This document shows positions 1,721-29,945 of a stretch of 32,958 nucleotides of DNA, in pieces. The notes beneath the pieces are model-generated. The model searched no databases, had not been told where the DNA came from, and saw only the letters and a program-made list of their open reading frames with translations. Every line of letters begins with the position of its first letter. Within the stretch, counting starts at the first letter, position 1. A program made the position numbers and the translations under genes. This stretch comes from Verrucomicrobiota bacterium (GTDB lineage Bacteria; Verrucomicrobiota; Verrucomicrobiia; JABWAM01; JAHFSZ01), in NCBI GenBank assembly GCA_023265515.1, contig JAHFSZ010000006.1, positions 7,549 through 40,506 on the forward strand, given 5' to 3'.

Positions 1721-1738
1721 GATTGATCCTGCTTCCGG

Positions 1739-8373: not shown

Positions 8374-9228
8374 CTAAAGCTCGACGAACTCGAGCTTGAA
8401 CTTTTCACGGATCATGCCGGCGGCGCGGCCACGCTCGAGGAACTCACGGATGGCGGCGCGACCTTTTTCGCCGTAGTCGAGCGTGTAGTCATTGACATAC
8501 ATCCGGACGAATTTTTTCGCGAGGACCAGGTCGAGGTCGCGTGCGTAGCGCATGACGCGGGGGATGGTTTCCTCGGTGTTGCGAAGGGCGTGGGTGATGC
8601 TTTGTTTGACGATGGCGGTGATTTTGCTGACAAGCTCGGGCCCGAGCGACTTTCGGATCACGTTGCCGCCGAGCGGGAGGGGCAAGCCGGTGTCCTCTTT
8701 CCACCAGGCGCCAAGATCAATAATGCGGTGAAGTTTCTCTTTTTCATAAGTGAGTTGGCCTTCGTGGATGATGAGGCCGGCTTGGACCTTGCCGGCGCGA
8801 ATGGCCCCAAAGATCTGATCAAAGGGGATGACGATGTGGTTGAACTCGCCCAGATAAAGCCGAAGTGCGAGAAACGCCGAGGTGAGCGTTCCGGGGACGG
8901 CGATCGTCATTCGGCGAAGGTCCTTGGGATCGCATGGCTCGGAGGCGACGACCATGGGGCCGTACCCATCGCCCATGCTGGCGCCGCATGGCATCAGAGC
9001 GTAGTTTGCTGCGACGCGCGGGTAGGCGTGGATCGAAACGGCGGAGACATCGAGCTCACCACGCATCGTCCGCTCGTTGAGCGTCTGAATGTCCTGGAGA
9101 ATGTGCCGGAACGACAGACCGCCGGTGTCAATCTGGTGTTGTGCGAGCGGATCGAACATGAACGCATCGTCCGGGTCGGGGCTGTGCCCCAGGGAAATTT
9201 CTCGTGTTTTTTGCGTCGTTTCGCTCAT
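8374..9228 (-). CDS. mqnD: 1,4-dihydroxy-6-naphthoate synthase-like protein (MqnD family, futalosine pathway)
   Basis: ISLGHSPDPDDAFMFDPLA near N-terminus, AVSIHAYPRVA, AGLIIHEGQLTYEKEKLHRIIDLGAWWKEDTGLPLPLGGNVI. Track start 9405 is probably too early; ATG at 9228 chosen. Confidence 0.85.
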   Translation of the reverse strand: MSETTQKTREISLGHSPDPDDAFMFDPLAQHQIDTGGLSFRHILQDIQTLNERTMRGELDVSAVSIHAYPRVAANYALMPCGASMGDGYGPMVVASEPCDPKDLRRMTIAVPGTLTSAFLALRLYLGEFNHIVIPFDQIFGAIRAGKVQAGLIIHEGQLTYEKEKLHRIIDLGAWWKEDTGLPLPLGGNVIRKSLGPELVSKITAIVKQSITHALRNTEETIPRVMRYARDLDLVLAKKFVRMYVNDYTLDYGEKGRAAIREFLERGRAAGMIREKFKLEFVEL

Positions 9229-9292
9229 GGTGGCCTTTACAACCAGGCGCGGGCAGATTACAAGTTCCGGATATTCAGAACAACCCCTGATC

Positions 9293-10384
9293 ATGAAAAA
9301 GCTTTCCGAAAACGCCCTCATGAAGGGAATTCCGCCGGAGGTGGTGGCCGACCTGGAAAAGAAGGCGAAACGGTTCGATTTTCCGGCAGGGTTGACACTT
9401 TTCAACGAAGGGGATGAGGGCAGCGTGGTCTACCTGCTTGAATCGGGAATCGTCCAGGTGCTCAAAAAATTTCAGTTGGACCGCATGGTTCTTCTTGAGG
9501 AGCTGAAGGAGGGGGATTTCCTTGGCGAACTGGCGCTGTTGGACCGGCAGGGGCGGTCCGCCACGGCGAAGGTGTCCACCCGCGTGACCGGCTGGAGCTT
9601 CGATGACACCATCCTCGACGCACTGCTCACCAAGGACAAGGACGTGGTCATTCACTTTTTGAGCACGCTGTCCGCCCGGATGCGCCAGGTGAATACAACC
9701 CTGATCCGACAGAAGGAGACGAGCGAGCGGGTGACGCTGCTCGGCAACATGGTTGGCGGAATCGTGCATGATTTGAAAAACCCGCTGGCTGCGATGCGGA
9801 TGTCAGCGGAGCTTTTGGGGATGAAGGCGCAGGACGAAAAGAGCAAGAAGGTGGCGGACCTTCTCCTCCAGCAGATCGACCGGCTGACGGCGATGATTCA
9901 TGAATTGCTGGAATTTGCGCGCGACCGGATCGAGTTGATGAAGGTTCTGGCGCGTTTGGATGACATCATCACGCAGAGCCATGACTTCTTCGCCGAAACA
10001 TGCCGCGCGGCGAACATTGCATTCGAGTTGAAGCTGAAGGCGCCGAGGAAAATTGAGATCGACCCGACCAAGCTTGGCCGCGTGGTCACCAACCTGATCA
10101 AAAACGCCATTCAGGCGCTGAAAGGGCGCAGTGAGGCAAAGATCGTCCTGGAGACGTCGCAGGGCGAGCAGGAAACAAGCATCGTCATCTCCGACAACGG
10201 ACCGGGGGTTCCTGAAACCATCCGGAACATGCTTTTCGAGCCGTTCGTGACCGCCGGCAAGAGGGACGGGACGGGGCTCGGACTTTCCATCGTCCGCAAG
10301 GTGGTCGAATCCCACGGCGGGAAGGTGACTTATCAGACGGAGACCGAAAAGGGCACGACTTTCCGGATCGTTCTGCCGGGATGA
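9293..10384 (+). CDS. Cyclic-nucleotide-binding-domain/sensor histidine kinase fusion
   Basis: N-terminal CNMP-type domain (LFNEGDEGSVVYLLESGIVQVLKK...GDFLGELALLDRQGRSATAKV); HisKA H-box GGIVHDLKNPLAAMR; HATPase NLIKNAIQAL, ISDNGPGVPE, GTGLGLSIVRKVVESHGG. Confidence 0.9.
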   Translation: MKKLSENALMKGIPPEVVADLEKKAKRFDFPAGLTLFNEGDEGSVVYLLESGIVQVLKKFQLDRMVLLEELKEGDFLGELALLDRQGRSATAKVSTRVTGWSFDDTILDALLTKDKDVVIHFLSTLSARMRQVNTTLIRQKETSERVTLLGNMVGGIVHDLKNPLAAMRMSAELLGMKAQDEKSKKVADLLLQQIDRLTAMIHELLEFARDRIELMKVLARLDDIITQSHDFFAETCRAANIAFELKLKAPRKIEIDPTKLGRVVTNLIKNAIQALKGRSEAKIVLETSQGEQETSIVISDNGPGVPETIRNMLFEPFVTAGKRDGTGLGLSIVRKVVESHGGKVTYQTETEKGTTFRIVLPG

Positions 10385-13747: not shown

Positions 13748-15517
13748 GTGAACAGGATTCGCATTCTTACCGAGGCCGTGGCCAACAAGATTGCCGCCGG
13801 CGAGGTGGTGGAGCGGCCCGCCTCTGCATGCAAGGAGCTGATCGAAAACTCCATTGACGCCGGCGGCGCTCATATCCGCATCGACGTGCGCGGCGGCGGC
13901 CGCACCCTGATCCGCGTCACCGACAACGGCTGCGGCATGAGCCGGGACGACGCACTTCTCTGCTTCGAGCGCCACGCCACCAGCAAGATCAAGACCGCCG
14001 TCGATATTGAAGAGATACGGACGCTTGGATTTCGGGGCGAGGCGATCCCGAGCCTCGCGGCTGTCTCGCGCTTCAGGCTCCTGACGCGCGAGCCCAATGC
14101 TCTCGAGGGGACGGAAATTGAGGCCGACGGCGGAAAAATCCGCTCCGTCCGCGCCGCGGGATGCCCGGCCGGAACCCAGATCGAAATGCGGCAGCTCTTT
14201 TTTAACGTTCCCGCTCGGAAAAAATTCCTGAAAAGCGAACAGACGGAGCTGGCCCGCATCCACCAGCTCGGGATTCTTTATGCTCTTGCTCATCCGCGGA
14301 TTCAGTTTTCTTTGCGCCACCACGAGCGGGTGCTGTTGGAGGCGCCTCCGGCAGAAAAACTGCGCGAAAGGGTGCGCTCTCTCTTCGGTGGCGAGATCCT
14401 GTCGCAACTGGTGCCGGTCGAGCACGAGGGACATGGCATTCGTGTCGTCGGCCTCACCGCGAAACCCGGATTTGTACGAAGCAACCGGCGTGAGGTGCAT
14501 TTTTTTGTCAACCAGCGCCCGGTCGAAAGCCGCGCGGTCTACTACGGCCTCCTGGAAGGATATCACAACGCGCTGATGAAGGGAAAATTTCCCGTCACGC
14601 TGCTCTTTGTCGAGATCGATCCCGCGGGAGTCGACGTGAACATCCATCCGGCCAAGCGCGAAGTCCGTTTCCGCGACGAAGCCTCCGTCCAGGCTGGAGT
14701 TGCGCAAGCCGTGCGCGAGGCGCTTGGAAAAGGGGAGGGCCGTCCGGTGGCTGTCTCGGCGGGAACCCCGATTCTGATGCCGGATCGCTCCTATGTTTCA
14801 ACTGGTGTCCAAGAAGAAGTTCTCGTTCGGGAGTCGCTTTCCCTGAGTCTTGACTCGGCGACACGGCGACACGGCGACACGGCGACAGCTGCGCAGACCG
14901 GACCCATGGCGGCTTTGGACCTTGGACATGGGACCTTGGACATCGGTGTGATCCACGGCATCGTCGGCCGGCTTTATATCCTGGCCGAAAACCGCGGCGG
15001 CCTCGTGATCATCGACCAACATGCCGCGCACGAGCGAATTCTCTACGAGCGACTCCTTGACCAGCTCGCCAAGAAAGCTGCGCCGTCGCAGAAGCTGTTG
15101 GCAGCCAGGAGCGTCGAGTTAACTCCGGCTGATTTCCAATTTTTGAAGGAGCAGATTCCTCTTCTCGAACGCATGGGTTTCGGCGTTTCGGAGTTCGGGA
15201 AAAACGCCCTGATGGTCGACGCACTGCCGCCCCATCTGCCGCCGGAAAACCTCGGATCACTTTTCCGTTGTATCGCCGACGCGCTCCAGGACGCGGGACG
15301 GGGAGTGAACCGCGAACGGTTCCGCGAAGACGTCATTGCCAAGACGGTTTGCCGTGCGGCGGTCAAGGCGAACGATCCGCTGAAGATCAAGGAAGCCGAG
15401 AGCCTGCTTCGAGATTTGCTCGAGTGCCGCCAGCCCTATTGCTGTCCCCACGGGCGCCCCACGATGATCCAGATTACCAAGGAGGAGCTTGAGAAAAAAT
15501 TTGGAAGACGGGCTTAG
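13748..15517 (+). CDS. mutL: DNA mismatch repair protein MutL, GTG start, predicted endonuclease-competent
   Basis: NKIAAGEVVERPASACKELIENSIDAGG, DNGCGM, GFRGEAIPSLAAVSRF; C-terminal DQHAAHERILYE fits DQHA(X)2E(X)4E; CCPHGRPT Zn-site motif. Confidence 0.96.
   Translation: MNRIRILTEAVANKIAAGEVVERPASACKELIENSIDAGGAHIRIDVRGGGRTLIRVTDNGCGMSRDDALLCFERHATSKIKTAVDIEEIRTLGFRGEAIPSLAAVSRFRLLTREPNALEGTEIEADGGKIRSVRAAGCPAGTQIEMRQLFFNVPARKKFLKSEQTELARIHQLGILYALAHPRIQFSLRHHERVLLEAPPAEKLRERVRSLFGGEILSQLVPVEHEGHGIRVVGLTAKPGFVRSNRREVHFFVNQRPVESRAVYYGLLEGYHNALMKGKFPVTLLFVEIDPAGVDVNIHPAKREVRFRDEASVQAGVAQAVREALGKGEGRPVAVSAGTPILMPDRSYVSTGVQEEVLVRESLSLSLDSATRRHGDTATAAQTGPMAALDLGHGTLDIGVIHGIVGRLYILAENRGGLVIIDQHAAHERILYERLLDQLAKKAAPSQKLLAARSVELTPADFQFLKEQIPLLERMGFGVSEFGKNALMVDALPPHLPPENLGSLFRCIADALQDAGRGVNRERFREDVIAKTVCRAAVKANDPLKIKEAESLLRDLLECRQPYCCPHGRPTMIQITKEELEKKFGRRA
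14856..14887. repeat. Perfect octameric tandem repeat, 4 x CGGCGACA
   Basis: Read directly, inside the mutL linker; encodes SATRRHGDTAT. Confidence 0.97.
14915..14942. repeat. Heptameric tandem repeat: TTGGACC TTGGACA TGGGACC TTGGACA
   Basis: Read directly, inside the mutL linker 27 bp after the octamer array. Confidence 0.92.
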
Positions 15518-15684
15518 ACAGCCTTGTTTATGGGCATTTTGTGGTTTTTGGCCTTGGGGGGGTGCTTCAGGGTGTCAAGGCGGGTTGAATATCGCTTGCG
15601 AATTGGACGTTTAAGACCCATATGCTAGCCTGGACGGTTTGATAAACTCCTGAATTTGAACGAGATCCAGCGTAAGTTAAGCAG

Positions 15685-16596
15685 ATGGAAAGGCTTGTCC
15701 GCCTCTTTAATCACAACCTGCCGATATCACGGCGCCATTTCTTTCAAACGGTCGGCCGGGCGGTCGGCGTCTCGGCCATCGGGGCCATGGCCAGCGGGAC
15801 CTATGCCTACGCGGTCGAGCCGAGGTGGCTGGAGACCAACCGCCACACCGTCACGCTGGCTAAGTTGCCGCCTGCCTTTGCGGGGACGCGCATCGTCCAA
15901 CTGAGCGACCTGCATCACAGCGAATACCTTGGCCGCCAATATCTTGAAGAAGTGTTTGATGCCGCGATGGCCGAGAAGCCCGACCTGATCCTGCTCACGG
16001 GCGACTTCATCACCGGTTTCCATGGCAATGTGAAAGCCTACCGGAACCGGACCGGCGACTTTTTCCTCCGCGAGCTCTCCGACATGCTCCGAAAAGTGAA
16101 AGCGCCTCTCGGCGTTTGGGGATGCCCGGGCAATCACGACTTCTGGTACGGGTTCTCGGCGGTGAGCCGGTTCCTTCGGCAGAGCGGAGTTCGAGTTTTG
16201 CGCGACGAGCATGTCCGGCTGAACCGGCAGAACCAGCAACTGTTGTTGATCGGACTGACTGATCTCTGGTCGGAGCCGATTCGCTGGCGTCGCGCTTTGC
16301 GGCACACCAGCCGTAAGGACTGCCGCCTTGTCATGATGCACAACCCGGATTCCTTCAGCCAGACCGTGAGGTTCGAGCTGGATTTCGTCATGTGCGGGCA
16401 CACACACGGCGGGCAGATCAGCCTGCCGTTCATCGGGCCGCCGATCCTGCCGATCGCCAACCGTGCTTTCATCCAGGGCTGGTTTCGTGAAGGGGACACC
16501 CAGATGTATGTGAACCGGGGCATTGGCGTGATTGGCCTGCCGATCCGCTTCAATGCGCGTCCCGAGATCGCCGTCTTCGATCTGCAGCGGGCTTGA
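15685..16596 (+). CDS. Metallophosphoesterase with Tat-like signal (YaeI/YkuE-like)
   Basis: SRRHFFQTVGRAVGVSAIGAMASG Tat-like motif; LSDLHHSEY, LLTGDFI, CPGNHDFW, MHNPDSF, CGHTHGGQI metallophosphoesterase motifs. Confidence 0.9.
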   Translation: MERLVRLFNHNLPISRRHFFQTVGRAVGVSAIGAMASGTYAYAVEPRWLETNRHTVTLAKLPPAFAGTRIVQLSDLHHSEYLGRQYLEEVFDAAMAEKPDLILLTGDFITGFHGNVKAYRNRTGDFFLRELSDMLRKVKAPLGVWGCPGNHDFWYGFSAVSRFLRQSGVRVLRDEHVRLNRQNQQLLLIGLTDLWSEPIRWRRALRHTSRKDCRLVMMHNPDSFSQTVRFELDFVMCGHTHGGQISLPFIGPPILPIANRAFIQGWFREGDTQMYVNRGIGVIGLPIRFNARPEIAVFDLQRA

Positions 16597-16709
16597 ACGT
16601 CGCTCCAGCGCTGAAGCATCCGCTCCCACGTGCCACGCGAGCAACGATGCTCCTGCAAAGCTTTCCGTGCTTGCCGCCGTTGTTGCTCCGGGTTAACAGT
16701 TCAGCAGCC

Positions 16710-17981
16710 ATGCTGGACATCAAGCTGATCCGTGAGAATGCCGACGCCGTCAAAAAAGGACTTTCGAAGCGGGATCCCGCGTTTGCCGGCGCCGTTGATT
16801 CGATCCGAAAGCTTGATGAAGACCGGCGCAGGATCATCGTCGAGACCGAGACTCTGAAAAACCAGCGCAATGTGGCCAGCCGGGAGATCGGCCAGATCAA
16901 GTCCAAAGGTCAGGATGCCTCCTCGGCGATGGCGGCCATGAAGAAAGTGGGTGATGACATCGCCACGCTCGACCAAAAGCTTCGCGAGATGGACGAGAAA
17001 GTCCATCGCGAGCTTCTTCTGTTGCCGAACCTGCCGCACGATTCCGTGCCGGCCGGCGACGGATTGGCGAATCGTGAGATCCGGACCTGGGGCAAGAAGA
17101 GAAAATTCGAATTCAAGCCCAAACCCCACTGGGAACTTGGCGAAAATCTCGGTATCCTCGACTTCAAAGGAGCGGCGAAGATCACCGGCAGCGGGTTCGT
17201 TTCCTTCCGCAAGCAGGGAGCGCGTCTGGAACGCGCTCTCATCCAACTGATGCTCGACATTCACACGCGGGACCATGGCTACATGGAGATTTCGCCGCCC
17301 TATCTGATCAACGAAGCGAGCATGATCGGCACCGGCCAGCTGCCGAAATTCGCCGTCGACATGTATGGGCTGAAGGATGATCCGCTTTATCTGGCGCCGA
17401 CGGCCGAGGTGCCGCTCACCAACCTGCACCGCGAGGAGATCCTGAAGGAAGAACAGCTTCCGATCCGGTACTGTGCTTATACACCGTGCTTCCGGCGCGA
17501 GGCCGGGTCGGCGGGAAAGGATACGCGAGGCATGATTCGCGTGCATCAATTCGACAAAGTCGAGCTGGTGAAGATCGTCCATCCCGGGCATTCCTACGAT
17601 GAGCTGGAGCAGCTCCTGTTGAACGCGGAAACGATCCTCCACATTCTGAATCTCCACTACCGGGTGATCCTGTTGAGCAGCGGGGACATGGGCTTCGGCG
17701 CCGCCAAGTGCTACGACATCGAAGTGTGGTGCCCGGGCATCGACGCCTATCAGGAGGTGTCATCCTGCTCCAACTTCGAGGCGTTTCAAGCCCGCCGCAT
17801 GAACCTCCGATATAAAGGCGGGGACGGGAAGAACCACTTTTGCCACACGCTTAACGGATCGGGCACGGCTCTGGCCAGGCTCTTCATTGCCTTGCTCGAA
17901 AATGGACAGCAAGCCGATGGCACCATCGTCCTGCCTGATGCGCTGAAGCCGTACTGGGGAGGCGACCTGGTCATCCGGTGA
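16710..17981 (+). CDS. serS: Seryl-tRNA synthetase
   Basis: MLDIKLIRENADAVKKGLSKR; TAEVPLTNLHREEIL, PCFRREAGSAGKDTRGMIRVHQFDKVELVKI, EVSSCSNFEAFQARRMNLRYK, LNGSGTALARLFIALLEN. Confidence 0.97.
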   Translation: MLDIKLIRENADAVKKGLSKRDPAFAGAVDSIRKLDEDRRRIIVETETLKNQRNVASREIGQIKSKGQDASSAMAAMKKVGDDIATLDQKLREMDEKVHRELLLLPNLPHDSVPAGDGLANREIRTWGKKRKFEFKPKPHWELGENLGILDFKGAAKITGSGFVSFRKQGARLERALIQLMLDIHTRDHGYMEISPPYLINEASMIGTGQLPKFAVDMYGLKDDPLYLAPTAEVPLTNLHREEILKEEQLPIRYCAYTPCFRREAGSAGKDTRGMIRVHQFDKVELVKIVHPGHSYDELEQLLLNAETILHILNLHYRVILLSSGDMGFGAAKCYDIEVWCPGIDAYQEVSSCSNFEAFQARRMNLRYKGGDGKNHFCHTLNGSGTALARLFIALLENGQQADGTIVLPDALKPYWGGDLVIR

Positions 17982-18047
17982 TCCGCGGGACGCGGCGTGC
18001 GCGAAAATTCCTCGCCTTTCCAGGTCCGAACGGATAAAAAAAACGCC

Positions 18048-18884
18048 ATGGAACCGCAATGGTACTACACCCTTCAGGGCCAGCAGCAGGGCCCAGTTCC
18101 GGAAAGCCAGCTTCGGTCTCTGCTCCAGAGCGGGCAGGTCCTACCCAACGAATTTGTATTTAAGGAAGGGATGAGCGACTGGGCTGCGGCGTCATCGCGC
18201 GCCGAGCTCATGGGGGGACTTTCCCCGATTACGACGACTCCCGCCATCGGCGCACGGGTCGGCGAGCTTTCGATTGGCGCGGTTTATCAGGAGGCGATCG
18301 CGGTGTTCAAGGAGAGTTGGATTCCGCTCTGTCTGGGTTTTCTTCTTGTCCTCGCGGTCTCTTTCGGCGGCGGGCTGGTTGCTGGCGTGATCGGCGCGAT
18401 AGCCCACGACCGTCATAATGTTCTTGGCAATCTGCTGGGCTTTGTCATCAACGGACCGCTGACGCTCGGGACATGGTTTCTGATCTTGAACGCCGTCGAC
18501 CGCAAGCCGGTGTCGCCAACCGATGTGCTGGAAGGCTTCAGGCATTTCCTTCCGGCCTTTATCCTCAATCTGCTCATGATGGTGGCGATGCTTGTCGGCC
18601 TGCTCGCCCTCATCATCGGCATCTTCATCGTCGCGATCCTGTTGAGTTTTGCCTGGCTCTACATGGCCGACCGCGGCTGCAGCCCGGTGGACGCCATGAA
18701 GCAAAGTTTCGGGTGCGTGAAATCCAACTTCCTCACCGTACTGGTCCTGATGCTGCTTTGGATTCCCATTGCCATCGCCGGTCTTCTGGCCCTGATCATC
18801 GGGCTGATTCCCGCCGGAGTGTTCTGCTGGCTGACCCTGGCTGTCGCCTATCGGTGGTTGAACCCCCCGACGCCAGTGGCCTAG
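18048..18884 (+). CDS. GYF_2-domain membrane protein
   Basis: MEPQWYYTLQGQQQGPVPESQLRSLLQSGQVLPNEFVFKEGMSDWAAAS (GYF_2-type), then several hydrophobic segments. Confidence 0.8.
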   Translation: MEPQWYYTLQGQQQGPVPESQLRSLLQSGQVLPNEFVFKEGMSDWAAASSRAELMGGLSPITTTPAIGARVGELSIGAVYQEAIAVFKESWIPLCLGFLLVLAVSFGGGLVAGVIGAIAHDRHNVLGNLLGFVINGPLTLGTWFLILNAVDRKPVSPTDVLEGFRHFLPAFILNLLMMVAMLVGLLALIIGIFIVAILLSFAWLYMADRGCSPVDAMKQSFGCVKSNFLTVLVLMLLWIPIAIAGLLALIIGLIPAGVFCWLTLAVAYRWLNPPTPVA

Positions 18885-18980
18885 AGAGGCGAGGGTTCGC
18901 GCCGAATGCTGTCGCAGTAGGGCGTTTTCCCCGCTAGAAACTGCTTTTGCAGCGCCCCGTGCAATGGCATTCTTTGGAGC

Positions 18981-19988
18981 ATGGCCGCTCATCGGAAATT
19001 CCCGGTTGTTTCCCGGCGGGGCCTCTTTCAGTCGTTTCAACAGTCGGTCGCCGCGAGTCGGCTCTGGCGCCCCGGCGAGAAACTCCTCGTCGGCGTTTCG
19101 GGCGGGCCTGATTCGGTCGCCCTGCTTCATCTGCTCTGTGCCACGGGTCACCGGCCGGTGGTCGCGCATGTGAACCACCGGCTTCGCGGGTCTCAGAGCG
19201 ACCGGGATGAGCGGTTTGTCCACGATCTGTGCGCCCGGTGGGGCCTGGAATTCGAGGGCGTGCGCGTCAGCACCCGGATCGAAGCCCGAAAAAGGGGCGA
19301 GTCGATCGAGGAGGGCGCGCGTCGGCTGCGCTATGATTTTTTTCGGCAGGTGGCGCGTGAACGCCGGATTAAAAAAATTCTGGTCGCCCATAACCGAAAT
19401 GATCAGGCGGAGACTTTGCTGATGCGCCTGCTTCGCGGATCAGGACGAAGGGGGCTGGGGGGAATGAAAATCATTTCGATTTTGCCTCTTGCGCGAACCT
19501 CCGGATCCACGCCACTGCTCGTGCGCCCGCTCCTGAGGATTTCCCGCGGCGAGCTGCTCGCCTATTTGCGGCAAAATGAGATCCCGTTTCGCCGGGATGC
19601 CACCAATGATCAGGAACACTTTTTCAGGAACCGGATCCGCATTCGTCTCATTCCATTGATCGAAAAACATTTTCAGCCGGCGGCGGTGGAAGTGTTCGCA
19701 AGGACGGCCGAGATTCTTGCCGACGAAGATGGGATTCTTGACAGGAGTGTCCCGCGCTTCGGTTGTGCATCGCGTCTGTCGAGGGCGAAACTGCTGAAGC
19801 TTCCCGAGGGACTGCGCGGCCGTGCGCTGTCGCGGTGGCTGGTGACAAGAGGATGCGCGGTCCCATCATGGGAGAGAATCGACGCGGTGATGAGGGTGCT
19901 GGCAGGGGATGCACGCGGACTCCGGCGAATCCAGCTTTCCGGCCGCAACGCCGTCGCCATCCGGAATGGAACGCTGGAGATTGAATAA
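18981..19988 (+). CDS. tilS: tRNA(Ile)-lysidine synthase
   Basis: LLVGVSGGPDSVALLHLL PP-loop, AHVNHRLRG, HNRNDQAETLLMRLLRGSG, RRDATNDQEHFFRNRIRIRLIP. Confidence 0.94.
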   Translation: MAAHRKFPVVSRRGLFQSFQQSVAASRLWRPGEKLLVGVSGGPDSVALLHLLCATGHRPVVAHVNHRLRGSQSDRDERFVHDLCARWGLEFEGVRVSTRIEARKRGESIEEGARRLRYDFFRQVARERRIKKILVAHNRNDQAETLLMRLLRGSGRRGLGGMKIISILPLARTSGSTPLLVRPLLRISRGELLAYLRQNEIPFRRDATNDQEHFFRNRIRIRLIPLIEKHFQPAAVEVFARTAEILADEDGILDRSVPRFGCASRLSRAKLLKLPEGLRGRALSRWLVTRGCAVPSWERIDAVMRVLAGDARGLRRIQLSGRNAVAIRNGTLEIE

Positions 19989-19991
19989 GAA

Positions 19992-22547
19992 ATGTTTGAA
20001 CTGACCCATCCATGGTTGTTGCTCCTGCTCGCGGGCATCGCCATCCTCTGGTACGGGCTGCGCCGGTCGCTGGCCGATATGACGGGGCTTCAGCGCCGTG
20101 CTTGCCTCGTCATCCGGCTTTTGATCTACGTTTTGCTCATCCTTGCGCTGGCAGGCGTGCGATGGATCCGGCACAGGGACTGGCTTTCCGTCGTTTATCT
20201 CGTCGACCGGTCCGCCAGCATCAGCGGCGAGGCCCTGAAAGATGCCGCAAAGTTCATCGAGGACTCCTCGAGGAATCGCCGCGAAAACGACCGGGTCGCG
20301 GTTCTAGGCTTCGGCACATCGTACGAGGTGCTCTTTCCCCTGCAGAACCGGTCGCCGTCAGCGCTGAATCTTGTCGCCGCGCCGGATGCCCACGGCACGG
20401 ACATCGCGGGGGCCATGGAGGCGGCAGCCGCGCTCTTCCCGCCCGAGTCAGAGAAAAAAATTGTCCTGCTCTGCGACGGTAATCCGACCCGGGGCGACGC
20501 GCTGGCGCAGGCAGTCCGGCTCGCAGGCGAGCGCATCAAGCTCGACACGGTCCTGCTGAAGAATCCGTTCCGGCCGGAGGTCCTGGTCCAGGAGGTTGTT
20601 TTGCCCAAAGAGATCAAGCCCGACGAGCCATTCCAGGTTCTGGTCAGGGTCAGGAGCACGCTGGCGCAAAAGGCGGAGGTGAAACTTCTTAAGGACCGGT
20701 TTTTGATGGATCGCAAGACGGTCGACCTTCGTGCCGGTGAGAATGAGGTCCTCTTTGAAACCCATGGCGGCGAGACCGGTTTCCATGCCTACGAGGTGGT
20801 GGTGCAGGCGCCGCAGGACACTGTTTTTGAAAACAACCGTGCTCTGGCGACGGCCGTGATCTCCGGCGCCCCTCGTGTCCTTCTGGTGGAATCGGAGGAG
20901 AGCCAGGCCCGTTATCTGGCCAATGCGCTGCGCGGCGAAAAAATCGACGTCACCGTGCGCAACACACTCGGCATTCCGACAGGGCTGGAGGATCTCCAGA
21001 ACTTCCATCTTGTCATCCTGAGCGATGTCGCGGCGCCCGATTTGTCGGTGCGGCAGATGAATCTGATCCGCACCTGGGTGAAGGACCTGGGTGGAAGTTT
21101 CATCATGCTCGGCGGCGAGAACAGCTTTGGATTGGGCGGTTACTACCGCACACCGATCGAGGAGATCCTGCCGGTGAGCCTGGAAGTCGAGAAAAAGCAA
21201 GATCAGCCGTCGCTCGCCCTGGTGCTCGTCGTCGACAAGTCGGGGTCCATGAGCGGCAACAAGATCGAGCTGGCCAAGGCCGCTTCGACCGCGTCTGTGG
21301 AACTGCTGAACAAGGATGATGAAATCGGCGTCATCGCGTTCGATGGATCGTATCACTGGGTGGTGCCACTGCAGGCGCGCCGCGATCCGCGCGATATTAC
21401 CGAGACCATCCTGACCATCCAGGCCGGTGGCGGCACCAGCATTTATCCGGCACTCGACCAGGCTTACCAGGCGCTGTCCAGGAGCCGGGCGCGGCTCAAG
21501 CATGTCATCCTGTTGACCGACGGCCAGAGCAACGAGGGCGATTACGCCTCGCTCTGCTCGCGCATGATGCAGGAAAAGATGACCGTTTCCACGGTGGCAA
21601 TCGGGCCGGACGCGGCTTTTGATCTTCTTCGGAACATCGCGGAATGGGGCGGCGGGCGTTTTTACCTTTCGGAGGATGCTTCGAACGTGCCGCAGATTTT
21701 CACCAAGGAAACCATGACGGTTTCACGTTCGAGCCTCGTCGAAGAGCCTTTCCGGCCGAAAGCGGTCCGGATGGGCTCCATTATTCGGGGAATCGAATGG
21801 GAGAAGGCGCCACTGCTCCTCGGCTACAACGCGACCAAGCCAAAGACAACGAGCGAGGTATTCCTTATGAGCGATCTGGGCGAGCCAGTGCTGGCGACGT
21901 GGCGCTTCGGCCTTGGCAAAGTCGGCGCGTTTACCAGCGATGCAAAAAATCACTGGGCTTCCGAGTGGCTGGAGTGGGGCGGATACCAGAAATTTTGGGC
22001 TCAGGTGGCGCGGGGTCTCATGAAGGCCGATGCCGAGGAGAGCTTCCAGCCGGTGCTGCTGGCCTCCAATGAAGGCGTCCATCTGGCGATGGACTCCGTG
22101 CGTCTCGACGGCAGCTTCGAGGACAAACTCTCGACGACGGTCCAGGTGGTTGACCCGCTTGGCCAGTCGCAGACGGTGCCCGTCGTCCAGCCGGCGCCTG
22201 GCCGTTATGAGGCCAGCTTCAATCCACAGACCCTGGGCGGATACCTCGTTCAGATCACCCAGCGGGATGAGAAGGGTGACGTCCTGCATCAGGCCACACT
22301 AAGCTATGTCAACAGTTACCCGCAGGAGTTTTTGAAGACCGATCCCGACCAGGAGTACATGCAGAAACTGGCCCAAGCCGGCGAAGGGCGATCTTCCCCC
22401 GCGCCATCGGAGATTTTTGCGCGGGAAGGCCCTGGAATCACCGCCCGCGTGGATTTAACGAATGGCTTTTTGATCGCGGCGCTGTTATTGTTCCCTTTGG
22501 ACATCCTGCTCCGGCGGTTGGACTGGGAAAGGTTTCGCGCAACATGA
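19992..22547 (+). CDS. Membrane protein with two vWA domains and an intervening GATase1-like region
   Basis: BatA-like N-terminal TM pair; first MIDAS VYLVDRSASIS, second LVVDKSGSMSGNK; VLLVESEESQARYLANALRGEKIDV between them; C-terminal TM. Confidence 0.88.
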   Translation: MFELTHPWLLLLLAGIAILWYGLRRSLADMTGLQRRACLVIRLLIYVLLILALAGVRWIRHRDWLSVVYLVDRSASISGEALKDAAKFIEDSSRNRRENDRVAVLGFGTSYEVLFPLQNRSPSALNLVAAPDAHGTDIAGAMEAAAALFPPESEKKIVLLCDGNPTRGDALAQAVRLAGERIKLDTVLLKNPFRPEVLVQEVVLPKEIKPDEPFQVLVRVRSTLAQKAEVKLLKDRFLMDRKTVDLRAGENEVLFETHGGETGFHAYEVVVQAPQDTVFENNRALATAVISGAPRVLLVESEESQARYLANALRGEKIDVTVRNTLGIPTGLEDLQNFHLVILSDVAAPDLSVRQMNLIRTWVKDLGGSFIMLGGENSFGLGGYYRTPIEEILPVSLEVEKKQDQPSLALVLVVDKSGSMSGNKIELAKAASTASVELLNKDDEIGVIAFDGSYHWVVPLQARRDPRDITETILTIQAGGGTSIYPALDQAYQALSRSRARLKHVILLTDGQSNEGDYASLCSRMMQEKMTVSTVAIGPDAAFDLLRNIAEWGGGRFYLSEDASNVPQIFTKETMTVSRSSLVEEPFRPKAVRMGSIIRGIEWEKAPLLLGYNATKPKTTSEVFLMSDLGEPVLATWRFGLGKVGAFTSDAKNHWASEWLEWGGYQKFWAQVARGLMKADAEESFQPVLLASNEGVHLAMDSVRLDGSFEDKLSTTVQVVDPLGQSQTVPVVQPAPGRYEASFNPQTLGGYLVQITQRDEKGDVLHQATLSYVNSYPQEFLKTDPDQEYMQKLAQAGEGRSSPAPSEIFAREGPGITARVDLTNGFLIAALLLFPLDILLRRLDWERFRAT

Positions 22548-25500
22548 AATGCCTGAGGTTAGCGGTGCTTCTGTTCCTCCTGGCGGGGGGGATGGCTGGG
22601 GTCCAGGCGCAGACCACTGAGGCGCCGCCGAAACCCGCCCTTCTCGAAAAGTACAAGCAGCTCCTTGAGAAACAGCCCGTGGAAGGCACGGCCTTGGACC
22701 GGCTTTGGGAGCTTTATGGAAAGCATTTTTCCACGCGCGAGCTGATCGCGGAGTACCGGAAGCGTGCCGAGGCGGATCCCGCCAATGCCAAGCTTCAAAT
22801 TGTCGTTGGCCTGTTGGAAAAGAAGGCCGGGCACCCGGAAGCCGCTGCCGTTGAATTGCAGAAGGCCGTCGAGCTTGCCGCCGAGGAGCCGCTTGCATGG
22901 CAAGCGCTCGCCGATGTTCAGCTGGCGCTCGGCGGCAATGCGGATGCGGTCAAGAGCCTGGAAAAAGCCCTGGCACTTGCCAAGTCCCCGGTGGTGAAAA
23001 TCCCCCTCTACGAAAAACTGGGTCATGCGCATTCCCAGAACAAGGACTGGAAGGCCGCCACCGAGGCGTATGAAAAAATTTCAGAGCTCGATCCTGACAA
23101 TGTGCAGACGCATCTCCAGCTGGCGCGCACGTATGAGGAGATCAACATCGTCGAGCGTTCTCTCGCCCACTACGAGGCCGTCGTGAAACTGGGCGAATCG
23201 TTCCAGCGCTGCACCGCCTACCGGCAGATCGGCCTGCTCTGGGAGAAGCAGGACAGGTTCGACGAGGCGCGCGCTGCTTATGAAAGCGGCCTGCAGCTCA
23301 CTTCTTACGGCAACTGGTTGCGCCAGGACCTCCAGCGAAAGCTGGTCCAGCTTTATGAACGCCAGGGAAGGCTGCCCGAGCTGATTTCCAAACTACGGCA
23401 GCAAATCCAGGCCGAGCCCGGCAACCTCGATCCGCGCTGGTTTCTTGCGGACATCTACGCCAGCCAGAGCGACCTGGACCGGCAGATCGAAGTGCTGAAC
23501 GACGCGCTCAGCATTGCCTCGAACATAGCCGACCTGCGCAAGCAGCTCGCCGACGCCTACCGCGAGCGCAACAATTATGAAGAGGCGGCTGTTCAGTACG
23601 CCGAGCTTTTTCGCCTGGAGGGGCGCTATTTGGAGCACGCGATCGCGGCCTGCGAGATGTGGGTCGCTGCCAGGAAGCATGGCGAGGCGACGAAGTTTTG
23701 GAAAAAGGCTTTGAGCGAGCACGGGCCGGATGTCGACTGGTACCTGGCCGCCGCGCAATTTCATTCCGCCAACAAGCTCCCCTCCGAGGCGGTTCTCTTT
23801 TTCAACAAGGCCCTGGAAATCGACCCGCACCACATGCCGACCCTGCTGGCCCTCGGCGAGCACTACTATAACCTGAAACAAACGGGCGATGCCGTTGCCG
23901 CATGGAAAAGGCTCGTCGTTCCCTCCGACAAGGAGGATACACGGCTTGAGCAGCAGACGCGTCTGGCGGAACTGCTGAAAGAGCACGGTCTGCACCAGGA
24001 GGCCGCCCAGGTCTGGGAGGAAATCGTCAAGAGACGTCCCAACGACGCGGTTTGCCGGCTCGCTCACGGCCGCCAGTGTCTGGAGTCCGGCGATCCTGAA
24101 AAAGCGCGCGCGCAGTTCGAGAAGGCGATGTCACTCAACGGTGACCTTGCATTCCGCTTGACCGTGCTCGATGCCTTGCTGGATGCGATCGAGCAGGATC
24201 GGCAGCAGGAAAACGGCCTGGCTGGTTATGCCGCTGAGCGTGAGAAAGTCTATGCTTCGGACCGGAGCCGCGACAACATTCTGATCCTTTCGCGAATCTA
24301 CGGCCGTCAGAAAAAGTGGAGCCAGTCCTTCACCGCGATGGAAAATTACCTGGCCGATCATGCCGGCGACGTGCAGGTCCTCAAGGAATTTGCCGATGTG
24401 GCTTCCCGCATTCCGGGCAAGCACGACCGGGCTGAGGCGGTATGGAACAAGCTTCGCCAGCTTGATCCGGGCGAGGAGCGCTCCTATCTGAAACACCTCG
24501 TCCGGATGAAGCTCGACGAAAAGCGCTCGATGGAGGCGGTCCAGTATGCCAAGGAAATTGTCGATCTCAATCCCCAGATGGCCGCCTCTTACATCGAGCT
24601 GGCTGACGCCTACCAGCAGGCGCACCAGCCCTCCGCTGCCATCGAGCAAGTGCGCGTTGCCGTGCAGAAAGATCCGGCGAATTTCGACTACCGGCGCAAG
24701 CTCGCCGACATGTACCAGAAGTTTGGCCGCTACGACGAAGCGGAGGCTGAATTGACCGGAATGTTGTCGATGCCGATGGAGACGCCCGTGCGAATGAACG
24801 TGCTGCAGGACATCATGTCTTTGGCGCTCAAGCGCAGCCGGCTCGACGACCTGGCACAGAACTTCCGCAAGAAACTGGAGGAGAATCCCGACGATTATTT
24901 TTTGCATCTGGCGAACGCGGAAATCTTAAGGGTAGTCGGCGATGACCGCGGATCGTACGGGATGCTTCAGAACGCGCTCAAGCACGCGAAGGAACCGGCC
25001 GAGGCGCTCAGCCGCCTGGTGGAAATCGCCTACGAGGAGGACAACTTGAAGGAGGCCATTCGCTACCAGCAAAGGTTGATGCGCCTCGCCCGCGATCCGA
25101 GCGCCTCATCGTATCTCAAACTGGCCGAGCTTCAGGAGGAGGCCGACGACACACCGGCCGCCGAGGAGACCTGGGGCCTGATTTCCAGGCGCTTCAAGGA
25201 CGACGAGGTGGTCCTTCGCGCCGTGGCGAGCCATTTTCGGGAGAAGGAGGCCGACAACGCCACCCGGGAAACTTACGAGCGGATCCTGGTGATCGACCCG
25301 AGCGATTATGCGACCTGGATCGAGCTGGCGAAGCTTTCGTTGAAAAGCGACAACAAGAAAAAGGCGGTCGACTGTTTCCAGAAGGTGCTGAGCCTGTCGG
25401 CGCTGCGCCATGCTGGAACCGAGTTGATCCTGCCCCCGTTGAGCCTGGTCGGAGACCCGTCACTCTGGTCCTCGCCCCAGGCCGCCAACGACGCCGGACG

Positions 25501-28500
25501 CGGTCCGGTGCGGGCGCGGCCCGGAGCCGGAGCGATGGCGCCAACGAATGTGCCACGCACGCTGGGTGCCAGGCATCTCTCCCGCGGCGGGCTTTTCTCG
25601 AATTCTCCATCGATTGACTTGCGCAAACCTCCGGCATCGCTCGAGGAAGCCCGGCTCGTTGCGATCGCCCATCTGGTTTCGTTGATGACGCCGCAGGAGC
25701 TCGCGGCTTGGGCGGGCCAGCTGGAGAAGGAGCGGCAGGTTCGCACGGCGGTCCGGCCGGAGGATGTTCCGAAGAACCAGGAGCTGATTCTTTTTTACGT
25801 GCTGACACAGAACAAGGAGAAGGGGGTCGCACTTCTGTCCGAGTTAAGCTTCGCCCAGCCGGGCAACTACAACCTGCGGAAGTTCTTCCTGCATGCGGCC
25901 GCGGTCTGGAACCGGATGGACGCGGTCGCGACATTTTTGCAAGAGCACACGCCGAATGGACTGCCACCGCGCGAGGGGTTGTATGAAGTCATTGATCTTT
26001 TGATCAGCCTGGGCAACAGCAGGGAGGCCCTCTCACTCGCCCAGCAGTTTATCGAAAAATATCCGGACATTGAGACCCACAGCGAGTTGGTTCATATCTT
26101 CGCCGACCGGCAGCGGTATGTCGAGGCGGTCCAGCTTGCACGGCTGGCTTTGCAGAAAAATCCGTCAGGTCTCCAATCGATGCATTATCGCTCCTGGCTG
26201 GTGGAGTGGCTTCTTTTGATGGGCCAGAGCGAAGAGGCCTCGAAGCTGGCCGGTGAAGTTGTCTACCGGGATGTGGTGGACCTGATCAGTGACCAGGATT
26301 CCAAGGTGCGGGTCCTTCGCCAGGTGCCGTTTTTGTTCAGCGAGCAGGAGATTTCAAAAATGATGGCTGAGCTTCCCGACTACATGGAGCGCCACTCCAC
26401 GCCCATCGACCGGTCTGCGACACTGGGCATCCTTTACACGGTGTTCGGCGATGATCAAAAGGCGGCACCGCATCTCGCCCATGCGGCCACGCTGAAGGGC
26501 GACAGCCTTGATTTCCTCAGGGAAGCATCGATGTGGTTTGAACAGCAGCGCTATTCCGGCGCCGCGAAAATTTTCTGGGATGCCAGCAAGGTCTCGCTCC
26601 AGAAGCTCCCGGAAAGCGATGTCGTGGTGGCGCAAATCAAGGACATCGAACGCCGCGAGTGGGAATATCTTCTCCAGATGGGCTCCGAAGAGGAGGTCAA
26701 TCAGCGTTTGGACGCGATCCTCAAGGATCCGGCGACCGACGAGCGTGTCCTGCAGGATCTCGCCGCCCAGTTGCGCAACTACCAATATCTCGAGCAGTCC
26801 GCCTCCGTCTGGCAATGGCTGATCAACCGGAGTCCCGACAATGCGGCGTACAAGCAACAATTGATCATCGTCTACCAGCAGACCGGCGACTTCGACAAGG
26901 CCATCCAGCTGTGGAAGACCGAGATCGCCCGAATCGCAAAGGCTTTTCAAGGCAATGAAAACCATCCAGAGGTCGAAAAGGCGCGGCTGCGCCTCTTTGA
27001 TGTTTACGAGCAGGCGGGACTGATTGACGAACTGCAGGTGGAACTCGAGGCTCAGCTCAAACAGACTCCTGATGATCCGGATCTTCTCAAGCGATTGATG
27101 AGGGCTTACCAGCAGACGAACAATGAGCCGGCGCTGGCAGTCATCCGCGAGAAGCTCAACCGCATCAGCCGCCTCCAGCCTGCGGTGGCCGGCTCCAATG
27201 ATGTCGAGTACATGATCTACCACTACCAAAACCAGGGGAACATCCAAGCCGCACTCGACGAGGCGGAGAGGATTTACCGCAGGGAACCCGCCAAGAGAGA
27301 ACTGGTCCTGCCGATTCTGATCAACCTCTACTTCCAGGCCAACCAGCAGGACAAGGCAATGCGATTGGTGCGCCGGCTGCAGGCGAAGCAGGCTTCCAAT
27401 CAGCTCTCGAGGATCTATCAGACCGTTGGATATCAACTGCAATCCAAAGCGAAATGGGATGACGCCGTCCGGATCTGGAGGGCGGCGGCGGAATCGGCAG
27501 TCTCTATTCCTGAGGCCTACCAGTACCAGATGCGCCTGGTGGATATCTACCTGAACCATTTGACCGATTTCAAAGCGGCGGAATCGGAGATCGAACAGCT
27601 GGAAAATTCCGTTCAGATGAGCGACACGGGGCAGCTCACCGAGGTGATCCAGATGCGCGTCCAACTCGAAGAGCGGCGGTCGAACCTGAAACTGTTCGCA
27701 GAAAAGCTCGAGAAAAAACTGAAGGACGACCCGGACGACGAGATGACGCTCTGGTCGCTGGTTCAGGTTTACCAGAGGCTCGGAATGTTCGAGCCGCTGG
27801 GGGCGATTGTCGAGCGGCTCATCGCACTGCATTCGGAGGACGAGGTTCTGCTCCAGCAGCTCGCCGGCGTCCTCAAAAACCAGCGGCAGTGGAAAAATGT
27901 GGAAAAAATCTTTCGCCAAATGATTCAGCGACAACCGCAGAACGTCTATTACTATACGGAACTGGCCGGTGCCCTGCTGAGCGACAATCGGAAGGACGAG
28001 GCGGAAAAGGTGCTCCGGCGCGTCGAGCAGCTCGGAGGCCAGGTCAGTCCCTGCGCGCAAATCGCCCAATTCTATCTTGGCCGCCAGATGTGGGATGAGG
28101 CGAACCGCTATTTTGAGAAAGCACTGGCTGAATCAAGGGGTTTCCGAAGCCTCTATGTCTACCAGCAGTATGCCGAGAGCCTTGCCCGCCAGCGGCAGTA
28201 CGAGAAGGCTCGCGATATTTACAAGAGAATCTTTTCATTTCCTCAGGGACGGCAGTACTACTACAACCTCTTCTCCCTCTACCGCGAATGGGGACGGATG
28301 GACGTCCTGCTCACCGATTTCGGCCCCGAAATCAAAAAGATGCCTTTTATGATGAAACAGCAGCTTTACCAGCAGCTGATTCTCGGTTTCAAGGAGCAGG
28401 GGGATTTGCTAAGAGCGATCCGGTTATTCGAGGAACAGCCGATCCATTTCACCGATCCCTACCTCTATCAGAACGTTGGCGAGGCCTACGATGGCCTGCA

Positions 28501-28858
28501 GCAGTATGAAAAGGCGGCCATCGCATTCCAGGAGGCGGTGACGCGCCAGCCTAACAACCAGCAGTGGATCCAGCGGCTCGCCGACACTTACTGGAAATGG
28601 TCGCAGCAGGTATCCAAGACGGGTGATCTGAAGACAACCGAGACGCTTCTCATCAAGGCGTGCAAGCTGCAACCCATCAACCAGCAGTATCACTTCGAGC
28701 TGGCCAGGCTTTACGAAACCGGAAACGAGCCGCGCAAGGCCATCCAGGTCTACCGGGACCTGGCTGATGTCACGCTCTCGCCCTCGGTCAAGAAGAGCTG
28801 CGAGGAGCAAATCCAGCGGCTCGAGAAAATTTCCGGCGCCGTCCCCAGTGGCGGTTGA
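22544..28858 (+). CDS. Very large secreted TPR-repeat protein (2104 aa)
   Basis: Signal peptide LAVLLFLLAGGMAGVQAQ; dozens of TPR-like helical pairs (e.g. DWKAATEAYEKISELDPDNVQTHLQLARTYEE). ATGA overlap with the vWA gene. Confidence 0.93.
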   Translation: MKCLRLAVLLFLLAGGMAGVQAQTTEAPPKPALLEKYKQLLEKQPVEGTALDRLWELYGKHFSTRELIAEYRKRAEADPANAKLQIVVGLLEKKAGHPEAAAVELQKAVELAAEEPLAWQALADVQLALGGNADAVKSLEKALALAKSPVVKIPLYEKLGHAHSQNKDWKAATEAYEKISELDPDNVQTHLQLARTYEEINIVERSLAHYEAVVKLGESFQRCTAYRQIGLLWEKQDRFDEARAAYESGLQLTSYGNWLRQDLQRKLVQLYERQGRLPELISKLRQQIQAEPGNLDPRWFLADIYASQSDLDRQIEVLNDALSIASNIADLRKQLADAYRERNNYEEAAVQYAELFRLEGRYLEHAIAACEMWVAARKHGEATKFWKKALSEHGPDVDWYLAAAQFHSANKLPSEAVLFFNKALEIDPHHMPTLLALGEHYYNLKQTGDAVAAWKRLVVPSDKEDTRLEQQTRLAELLKEHGLHQEAAQVWEEIVKRRPNDAVCRLAHGRQCLESGDPEKARAQFEKAMSLNGDLAFRLTVLDALLDAIEQDRQQENGLAGYAAEREKVYASDRSRDNILILSRIYGRQKKWSQSFTAMENYLADHAGDVQVLKEFADVASRIPGKHDRAEAVWNKLRQLDPGEERSYLKHLVRMKLDEKRSMEAVQYAKEIVDLNPQMAASYIELADAYQQAHQPSAAIEQVRVAVQKDPANFDYRRKLADMYQKFGRYDEAEAELTGMLSMPMETPVRMNVLQDIMSLALKRSRLDDLAQNFRKKLEENPDDYFLHLANAEILRVVGDDRGSYGMLQNALKHAKEPAEALSRLVEIAYEEDNLKEAIRYQQRLMRLARDPSASSYLKLAELQEEADDTPAAEETWGLISRRFKDDEVVLRAVASHFREKEADNATRETYERILVIDPSDYATWIELAKLSLKSDNKKKAVDCFQKVLSLSALRHAGTELILPPLSLVGDPSLWSSPQAANDAGRGPVRARPGAGAMAPTNVPRTLGARHLSRGGLFSNSPSIDLRKPPASLEEARLVAIAHLVSLMTPQELAAWAGQLEKERQVRTAVRPEDVPKNQELILFYVLTQNKEKGVALLSELSFAQPGNYNLRKFFLHAAAVWNRMDAVATFLQEHTPNGLPPREGLYEVIDLLISLGNSREALSLAQQFIEKYPDIETHSELVHIFADRQRYVEAVQLARLALQKNPSGLQSMHYRSWLVEWLLLMGQSEEASKLAGEVVYRDVVDLISDQDSKVRVLRQVPFLFSEQEISKMMAELPDYMERHSTPIDRSATLGILYTVFGDDQKAAPHLAHAATLKGDSLDFLREASMWFEQQRYSGAAKIFWDASKVSLQKLPESDVVVAQIKDIERREWEYLLQMGSEEEVNQRLDAILKDPATDERVLQDLAAQLRNYQYLEQSASVWQWLINRSPDNAAYKQQLIIVYQQTGDFDKAIQLWKTEIARIAKAFQGNENHPEVEKARLRLFDVYEQAGLIDELQVELEAQLKQTPDDPDLLKRLMRAYQQTNNEPALAVIREKLNRISRLQPAVAGSNDVEYMIYHYQNQGNIQAALDEAERIYRREPAKRELVLPILINLYFQANQQDKAMRLVRRLQAKQASNQLSRIYQTVGYQLQSKAKWDDAVRIWRAAAESAVSIPEAYQYQMRLVDIYLNHLTDFKAAESEIEQLENSVQMSDTGQLTEVIQMRVQLEERRSNLKLFAEKLEKKLKDDPDDEMTLWSLVQVYQRLGMFEPLGAIVERLIALHSEDEVLLQQLAGVLKNQRQWKNVEKIFRQMIQRQPQNVYYYTELAGALLSDNRKDEAEKVLRRVEQLGGQVSPCAQIAQFYLGRQMWDEANRYFEKALAESRGFRSLYVYQQYAESLARQRQYEKARDIYKRIFSFPQGRQYYYNLFSLYREWGRMDVLLTDFGPEIKKMPFMMKQQLYQQLILGFKEQGDLLRAIRLFEEQPIHFTDPYLYQNVGEAYDGLQQYEKAAIAFQEAVTRQPNNQQWIQRLADTYWKWSQQVSKTGDLKTTETLLIKACKLQPINQQYHFELARLYETGNEPRKAIQVYRDLADVTLSPSVKKSCEEQIQRLEKISGAVPSGG

Positions 28859-28931
28859 TCCTTTTCCAGCGGTCCGTTCAAAACAGGGTTGAAATTCAGG
28901 GGTGCCTCCTTTAGATTGCGCGTCCTTTTCC

Positions 28932-29945
28932 ATGAAGGCCATGAAAAACATCGCAGTGCTCGGCGCGACCGGAGCCGTCGGTATCGAGGTACTCCATACG
29001 CTCGAGCGGCGGAACTTTCCGGTCGGCCGCCTCAAGCTGCTGGCCTCGTCGCGCTCGGCAGGAAAAAAACTCCGTTTTAAGGGCAAGCTGGTTGCCGTCG
29101 AAGCGGTGACGCCGGATTCCTTCCAGGATGTCCAGATCGCGATCTTCAGCGCCGGCGCGAGCCGCTCTCTCGAGTTCGCGCCGCACGCCGTGAAAGCGGG
29201 CGCGGTGGTCATTGATAACTCGTCCGCCTACCGGATGGATCCGCAGATCCCGCTCGTCGTTCCGGAGGTCAATTCCGGGGACATGCGCAAGCACAAGGGG
29301 ATCATCGCCAATCCGAATTGCACGGCGGCGATCATGGCCGTTGTCCTCTGGCCGATCCACCAGGCCGCGAAAATCGAAAGAATTGTTGTCTCGACCTACC
29401 AGGCCGCCAGCGGCGCAGGCGCCAAAGCGATGCAGGAGCTCGAGGAACAGAGCCGCGATATCCTGGCGGGCCGCGCGGCGAAAAAAGAGGTTTTGCCGCA
29501 CCAGATTGCGTTCAATGTTTTTTCACACAACGCCGAGATTGCCGACAACGGCTACAACGGGGAAGAAAACAAAGTTGTCCAGGAGATGCGGAAGATGTTT
29601 CACGAGCCGCAGCTCAAGATTTGCGCCACCTGCATTCGCGTCCCGGTGATGCGGGCGCACTCCGAGTCGATCGTCATTGAGACCGGGCGAAAACTTTCGC
29701 CGGAAGAGGCGGTGAAGATTCTCGGCAAGGCGCCTGGTGTGCGGCTGGTGAACGACCCGCGAAACAACTACTTTCCGATGCCAATCGAGGCATCCGGCGA
29801 ATTTGACGTCCTTGTCGGCAGGATTCGCAGGGACTTTTCCGCCAGGGAAGGCCACGGCTTGGCCCTCTTTGTCAGCGGCGACCAGCTGCTCAAAGGCGCG
29901 GCCCTGAACGCCGTCCAGATCGCCGAGAGCCTCGCCGACCTGTGA
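28932..29945 (+). CDS. asd: Aspartate-semialdehyde dehydrogenase
   Basis: NIAVLGATGAVGIEVL, FSAGASRS, VIDNSSAYRMDPQIPLVVPEVN, NPNCTA, STYQAASGAGAKAMQEL. Confidence 0.95.
   Translation: MKAMKNIAVLGATGAVGIEVLHTLERRNFPVGRLKLLASSRSAGKKLRFKGKLVAVEAVTPDSFQDVQIAIFSAGASRSLEFAPHAVKAGAVVIDNSSAYRMDPQIPLVVPEVNSGDMRKHKGIIANPNCTAAIMAVVLWPIHQAAKIERIVVSTYQAASGAGAKAMQELEEQSRDILAGRAAKKEVLPHQIAFNVFSHNAEIADNGYNGEENKVVQEMRKMFHEPQLKICATCIRVPVMRAHSESIVIETGRKLSPEEAVKILGKAPGVRLVNDPRNNYFPMPIEASGEFDVLVGRIRRDFSAREGHGLALFVSGDQLLKGAALNAVQIAESLADL

Follow-up and report, generated by a model that had tools for sequence, protein, structure and literature searches.

The gene pair and the question it raises

Which system do two coupled genes serve when the partners expected of them are missing from their surroundings? 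A membrane protein with two von Willebrand factor A (vWA) domains and a giant tetratricopeptide repeat (TPR) protein are encoded back to back in a stretch of 32,958 nucleotides (nt) from a Verrucomicrobiota bacterium (assembly GCA_023265515.1, contig JAHFSZ010000006.1, positions 7,549 to 40,506), which is called the window here. No gene for a MoxR ATPase or a DUF58 protein lies beside them. The pair is probably the distal portion of a MoxR system with six components, namely T505, a MoxR AAA+ ATPase, a DUF58 protein, a BatA-like vWA protein, the window vWA protein with its GATase-like region, and the giant TPR protein, and this system would act in ATP-driven upkeep of the envelope. The pair comprises the following features (window positions):

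19992..22547, plus strand: predicted inner-membrane protein of 851 residues (aa), a vWA domain followed by a GATase1-like region split by a second vWA domain (open reading frame, domain search)
22544..28858, plus strand: giant TPR protein of 2104 aa with a signal peptide, predicted to be periplasmic or secreted (open reading frame, domain search)
22544..22547, plus strand: ATGA overlap of the vWA gene stop and the TPR gene start (sequence)

An earlier interpretation of this DNA, referred to here as the sequence-only reading, had described both open reading frames (ORFs) with these sizes, their stop/start overlap, and tilS and asd as the flanking genes; the sequence, in which the two ORFs share 4 nt (ATGA), confirmed each of these points. 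It had also regarded the pair as a two-protein module, which was not borne out: a MoxR-DUF58-BatA half is located on another contig of the same genome (C101), and orthologues of the pair are located in MoxR operons of relatives.

MoxR loci in the same genome

A search with PF07726 revealed three MoxR genes in the 2.2-Mb genome, on contigs C66, C77 and C101, each with a DUF58 gene beside it. The statement that the pair is without MoxR/DUF58 partners holds for the window locus but not for the genome, which has three MoxR systems.

The C101 locus (L055) has the order T505-MoxR-DUF58-BatA603, followed almost directly by an unrelated glycosyltransferase-like gene, and vWA and giant TPR genes of the window type were not found on it. 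The MoxR protein matched AAA_3 with 214 bits and PF20030 (bpMoxR) with 47 bits, above the cut-off of the latter; the DUF58 protein, encoded directly after it, scored 126.6 bits, and BatA603 matched PF07584 (53.6 bits) and VWA_2 (54.8 bits). When the BatA protein encoded directly upstream of the vWA gene in the relative G300 was searched against the window genome, BatA603 was the sole match (40% full-length identity, E = 6e-119). The tetranucleotide signatures of C101 and the window contig were correlated with r = 0.78, compared with 0.67–0.82 for other contigs of the same genome and 0.51–0.61 for other genomes.

T505 is encoded at positions 6654–8171 of L055 (contig C101 of the window genome, G000), and its gene lies ahead of MoxR wherever the set forms a single run and in the majority of the scattered sets described below. 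The protein is conserved and has a hydrophobic N-terminus, a subsequent coiled-coil-like region and a C-terminal motif resembling IKRYFESIRPQ; it matched no Pfam family. An NCBIfam match to antiphage_ProA was weak (E = 0.004; 14.6 bits against a cut-off of 1500) and was rejected as coiled-coil noise. A 959-aa TPR protein is encoded upstream of T505 (L055, 1999–4878).

The other two loci are further MoxR-DUF58-vWA-TPR operons, one of them with BatD. The C66 locus (L053; MoxR-DUF58-232-aa protein-BatA-type vWA-vWA/TPR-BatD-TPR/SH3) is, by its gene content, a canonical Bat operon, in which the 232-aa gene gave no match in Pfam and NCBIfam. The C77 locus (L054; MoxR-DUF58-369-aa protein-vWA-vWA-TPR) is related to the C66 set. 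As evidence against its view, the sequence-only reading had named an operon at another locus in which MoxR and DUF58 are accompanied by a vWA-TPR pair of their own; C66 and C77 are such operons, and C101, which has neither gene, is not. BatD was found only in the separate C66 operon of the window genome and not in the C101/window set.

Gene order in relatives

Relatives were taken from a search of 384 class genomes; a search for related loci in genome contigs had yielded a single, distant hit, a Bat-type operon from the alphaproteobacterium Shimia (L035). Orthologues of the vWA protein (E ≤ 1e-50) were present in 138 of the 384 genomes and also in same-phylum genomes outside the class. Relatives carry the vWA gene 3' of MoxR-DUF58-BatA, in several cases with the giant TPR gene adjoining, and no BatD match was found beside the vWA gene in relatives. 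All six genes form a single run (T505-MoxR-DUF58-BatA-vWA-giant TPR) in L122 (G263), L125, L126 and L129–L132. L036 (G042) has MoxR-DUF58-BatA-vWA-giant TPR, with an ORF as the T505 counterpart that was not confirmed by alignment. In L128/L146 and in G135 the run opens, at its 5' side, with the giant TPR gene. A homologous TPR gene adjoins a homologous vWA gene in eight loci besides the window.

Elsewhere the set is broken up. In family f41 (L116, L136, L250 and others) it lies in three pieces, [T505-MoxR], [DUF58-BatA-vWA] and [TPR], with the TPR gene near recN/tyrS in several members, far from the vWA gene. T505 and MoxR are on separate contigs in G300, and G058 and the second set of G198 have four pieces, [T505-MoxR], [DUF58-BatA], [vWA] and [TPR]. 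The one-operon arrangement seen in L122 and others is not found in the window genome, where the set is split into two pieces, [T505-MoxR-DUF58-BatA] on C101 and [vWA-TPR] in the window. A lone vWA subtype (L190–L195, L199–L202 and L208; mostly families f18 and f27) has no MoxR, DUF58 or BatA gene within the flanks read (~5–10 kb); in G198, the matching partner genes of this subtype (T505-MoxR and DUF58-BatA pairs) are located elsewhere in the genome.

In L038 (4613–6991) and L041 (12033–14369), a gene for a BPD_transp permease-NHL beta-propeller fusion lies between BatA and vWA, just upstream of the latter. Because this gene occurs at loci of a clade without a detected giant TPR protein, the periplasmic repeat partner may be replaceable, and the permease-NHL protein is possibly an alternative repeat partner, which we regard as a lead and not as a result.

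Co-occurrence and co-evolution of the vWA and TPR proteins

Giant TPR proteins were detected in the 384 class genomes with a profile of the N-terminal region in ORFs of at least 1600 aa, with five TPR candidates scored per genome, so that absences are soft. The family was present in 36 genomes, and all 36 had the vWA protein (E ≤ 1e-117 in each). The hypergeometric probability of this co-occurrence, calculated against the set of 138 genomes with vWA, was 4e-18, an optimistic value through shared ancestry. Pairwise distances of the vWA and TPR proteins were correlated with r = 0.94, a value reached in none of 5000 permutations.

In each of three genomes (G198, G169 and G290), the vWA protein has two copies and the TPR protein occurs as both subtypes. 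Both trees grouped them consistently: the vWA copy from the operon was matched by the operonic TPR subtype, the lone copy by the unlinked one. The mirror correlation dropped to r = 0.84 when the paralogues were swapped. MoxR, T505, DUF58 and BatA of G198 are likewise present in two sets. Species history alone would hardly account for paralogues that match up in this way. The 36/36 co-occurrence, the congruent distances and the joint segregation of paralogous sets lead us to interpret the vWA-TPR adjacency as a fragment of a MoxR system that has been broken up; they also support the proposal that the two genes are a functional pair.

Domains and topology of the vWA protein

The following features were assigned to the 851-aa protein (window positions):

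19992..20174, plus strand: N-terminal double transmembrane anchor, BatA-like arrangement (hydropathy; PF07584 sub-threshold)
20190..20558, plus strand: vWA domain 1, metal ion-dependent adhesion site (MIDAS) residues D72/S74/S76, T136 and D162 (domain search, alignment)
20898..21179, plus strand: N-terminal half of GATase1_like, no catalytic Cys (profile 28–140)
21219..21704, plus strand: vWA domain 2 between the GATase1_like halves, MIDAS residues D415/S417/S419, T482 and D510 (domain search, alignment)
21777..22010, plus strand: C-terminal half of GATase1_like (profile about 165–242)
22449..22523, plus strand: C-terminal transmembrane segment (hydropathy)

Domain searches gave two Pfam VWA domains, and the MIDAS residues (DxSxS, Thr and Asp) are complete in both, in agreement with the two intact motifs that had been reported for this membrane protein. 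The DxSxS motif of vWA1 was invariant in all 53 aligned homologues; that of vWA2 was retained in 44 of the 52 other homologues and lost in eight. A GATase-like middle had also been proposed. The GATase1_like profile (PF07090) does match, but in two parts rather than one middle block: profile positions 28–140 align with residues about 302–396 and positions about 165–242 with residues 596–673. The second vWA domain (residues about 409–571), around which the match is split, would therefore lie inside the GATase1_like fold. Neither half contains Cys, the only ones in the protein being Cys38, Cys161 and Cys522, so the fold is probably degenerate and non-catalytic, and amidotransferase activity is an unlikely function.

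Hydropathy indicated two transmembrane segments at the N-terminus and one at the C-terminus, and PF07584 matched with 18.3 bits, below its cut-off of 25.9. From this layout we infer that the protein is membrane-anchored with its domains facing the periplasm. The same layout is found in Borrelia BB0173, a BatA-domain protein with three transmembrane segments whose vWA domain was experimentally located in the periplasm (PMC5700661). AlphaFold2 without an alignment reached a pLDDT (predicted local distance difference test) of only 40, and the model was discarded.

The giant TPR protein and its family

TPR matches span nearly the entire length of the 2104-aa protein, and its N-terminus is signal-peptide-like without a lipobox Cys, consistent with the giant secreted TPR protein described earlier; we place it in the periplasm by prediction. 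The assignment of the pair to the envelope by the sequence-only reading was judged right. Two further features were recorded (window positions):

22649..22717, plus strand: family-specific N-terminal motif RYxxxLxxxPxxGxAxDRLWxxY, common to both giant-TPR subtypes (alignment)
25415..25642, plus strand: Gly/Ala/Pro/Arg-rich non-TPR stretch between two TPR blocks in the middle of the protein, residues 958–1033 (sequence)

The motif and the next 300 residues could be aligned in 29 proteins, by which the giant TPR proteins are a distinct family and not arbitrary TPR proteins. Two subtypes were distinguished: proteins of ~1900–2200 aa, usually unlinked, and proteins of ~1700–3700 aa that mostly adjoin the vWA gene. 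The window protein is 26–32% identical to f41-like members of the unlinked subtype and 18–25% identical to the operonic subtype. In both the vWA and TPR trees, whose roots are uncertain, the window protein leaves the trunk between the two subtypes and lies near G263, which has the six genes together. The TPR tree has no confident root, so that the window TPR protein may be an early offshoot of either the unlinked or the operonic subtype.

Genomic surroundings of the pair

Two genes flank the pair as neighbours only:

18981..19988, plus strand: tilS (domain search)
28902..29945, plus strand: asd (domain search)

The vWA gene starts 3 nt after the end of tilS, and asd lies 3' of the TPR gene. 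tilS was detected in 109 of 113 class genomes. Among the tilS loci of 29 relatives, read with flanks of ~1.5 kb, several repeated the serS-tilS arrangement, and no vWA or asd gene was recognised among the ORFs after tilS; a conserved tilS-vWA-asd linkage was rejected on this basis. The neighbours, correctly taken earlier to be no Bat partners, look like a local, accidental surrounding of the pair. Non-conserved linkage at the window, which the sequence-only reading had named as counter-evidence to its view, was seen for tilS/asd but not for the vWA-TPR adjacency, which recurs across part of the class.

Upstream, window positions 13748–19988 hold mutL, a metallophosphatase gene, serS, a GYF_2/DUF975 membrane protein gene and tilS, all in the direction of the pair. 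Positions 9089–10384 encode a histidine kinase (HisKA and HATPase_c) that begins with a cyclic-nucleotide-binding domain (PF00027). On the minus strand, positions 1070–3184 hold genes for a class-III aminotransferase and then an AAA_26 protein, probably bioA-bioD.

Comparison with known systems

The C101/window set shares a MoxR AAA+ protein, DUF58, a BatA-type double transmembrane anchor with periplasmic vWA, and a TPR partner with the Bat and MoxR-DUF58 operons of Bacteroides, Leptospira and Borrelia. It differs from them in that neither BatD nor BatE was found, that a vWA domain lies within a GATase1-like fold, that the TPR protein has ~1700–3700 aa, and that the genes are split over loci; true Bat-type operons are present separately in the same genome. 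Going by the description in PMC5700661, Rhizobium leguminosarum likewise has a MoxR-DUF58-type operon, cmdA-D (RL3499–RL3502), on which the integrity of its envelope depends. Envelope and morphology defects followed when a MoxR-DUF58 operon was lost in this species, and a TPR protein with an envelope function was described by the same laboratory (Vanderlinde 2011, Neudorf 2015), both as cited in PMC5700661.

Soluble MoxR/vWA chaperone pairs (NorQ/NorD, RavA/ViaA) also combine a MoxR hexamer with a vWA protein that remodels a membrane complex, and in NorQ/NorD the vWA partner plugs the AAA+ pore (PMC9976466). In contrast, the vWA proteins of the C101/window set are predicted to be membrane-anchored and periplasmic, and DUF58 would be the cytosolic vWA-like partner. 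The MoxR-vWA-beta-propeller ternary systems (PF20030; PMC7159879) resemble the set in having MoxR, vWA and a repeat protein, and in a sister clade a permease-NHL propeller protein is encoded next to vWA. However, AAA_3 is by far the better match for the C101 MoxR, the repeat protein consists of TPRs, and no hallmarks of defence were found; domain searches found no beta-propeller family in the window pair or the C101 set.

Alternative explanations

A stand-alone envelope scaffold of two proteins independent of any MoxR ATPase, as the sequence-only reading had it, would agree with the linkage of the pair to tilS and asd only and with the f18/f27 vWA subtype, whose flanks lack MoxR, DUF58 and BatA. 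We consider it unlikely, given that the genome checked for this subtype, G198, has matching T505-MoxR and DUF58-BatA pairs elsewhere, that orthologues are within MoxR operons in many relatives, and that the matching half is on C101. It is also conceivable that an unlinked-subtype TPR gene landed beside an unlinked vWA gene of unrelated function, as the distant position of the f41 TPR genes and the higher identity of the window TPR protein to them might suggest. Such a chance adjacency is quite improbable in view of the complete co-occurrence, the mirror correlation, the ATGA coupling and the eight other loci with homologous adjacency.

That the pair is a piece of a canonical Bacteroides-aerotolerance (Bat) operon is very doubtful. 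vWA, TPR, MoxR, DUF58 and BatA N-terminal domains are all in the set, but a canonical operon is already on C66 and a related one on C77, BatD is missing from the C101/window set, and a vWA-GATase-vWA protein and a 2000-aa TPR protein are foreign to Bat. A role in a MoxR-vWA biological-conflict or defence system, raised by the PF20030 match of the C101 MoxR, is hardly credible: AAA_3 scores far higher, the gene set is kept across class families, and a scan of the six proteins with PADLOC families gave nothing convincing on any of them.

Several observations weigh against the six-component MoxR system itself. Deletion of bat genes in Leptospira gave no phenotype (PMC3557215), contrary to a general stress role. 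The two-piece arrangement was read from one draft genome (88.5% complete, 103 contigs), with no close relative as confirmation. By identity the window TPR protein is nearer the usually unlinked subtype, although the tree places it between both. Shared ancestry inflates both the co-occurrence and the mirror-tree figures, and giant TPR proteins are not universal, since none was detected in the part of the vWA clade with the permease-NHL gene.

Proposed mechanism and implications

In the proposed six-component MoxR system, a hexameric MoxR and a cytosolic DUF58 protein, the likely adaptor, would supply ATP-driven force, as suggested by the topology and by analogy with known MoxR/vWA pairs. Both membrane vWA proteins, the BatA-like one and that of the window, may carry signal or force across the inner membrane to MIDAS-bound periplasmic partners, and the TPR solenoid would be a periplasmic scaffold that gathers client proteins. 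Envelope proteins would be remodelled as a result, whereby an envelope complex is matured or maintained. More tentatively, and with less than even confidence, the six proteins could represent a new trans-envelope MoxR machine of Verrucomicrobiota-like bacteria, in which the AAA+ protein drives a giant (~1700–3700 aa) periplasmic TPR solenoid via MIDAS, with an exchangeable repeat module (TPR or permease-NHL) and a set that co-evolves after operon break-up.

MoxR-DUF58-vWA operons are widespread, and their targets beyond a few soluble pairs are little understood. The giant TPR protein, a predicted periplasmic partner, is found together and evolves in step with the vWA protein even where their genes lie apart, which makes it the probable client adaptor. 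Gene neighbourhood alone was misleading in this case, with MoxR missing beside the pair yet present in the system. The finding would assign a family of giant repeat proteins to a known but poorly understood type of machine.

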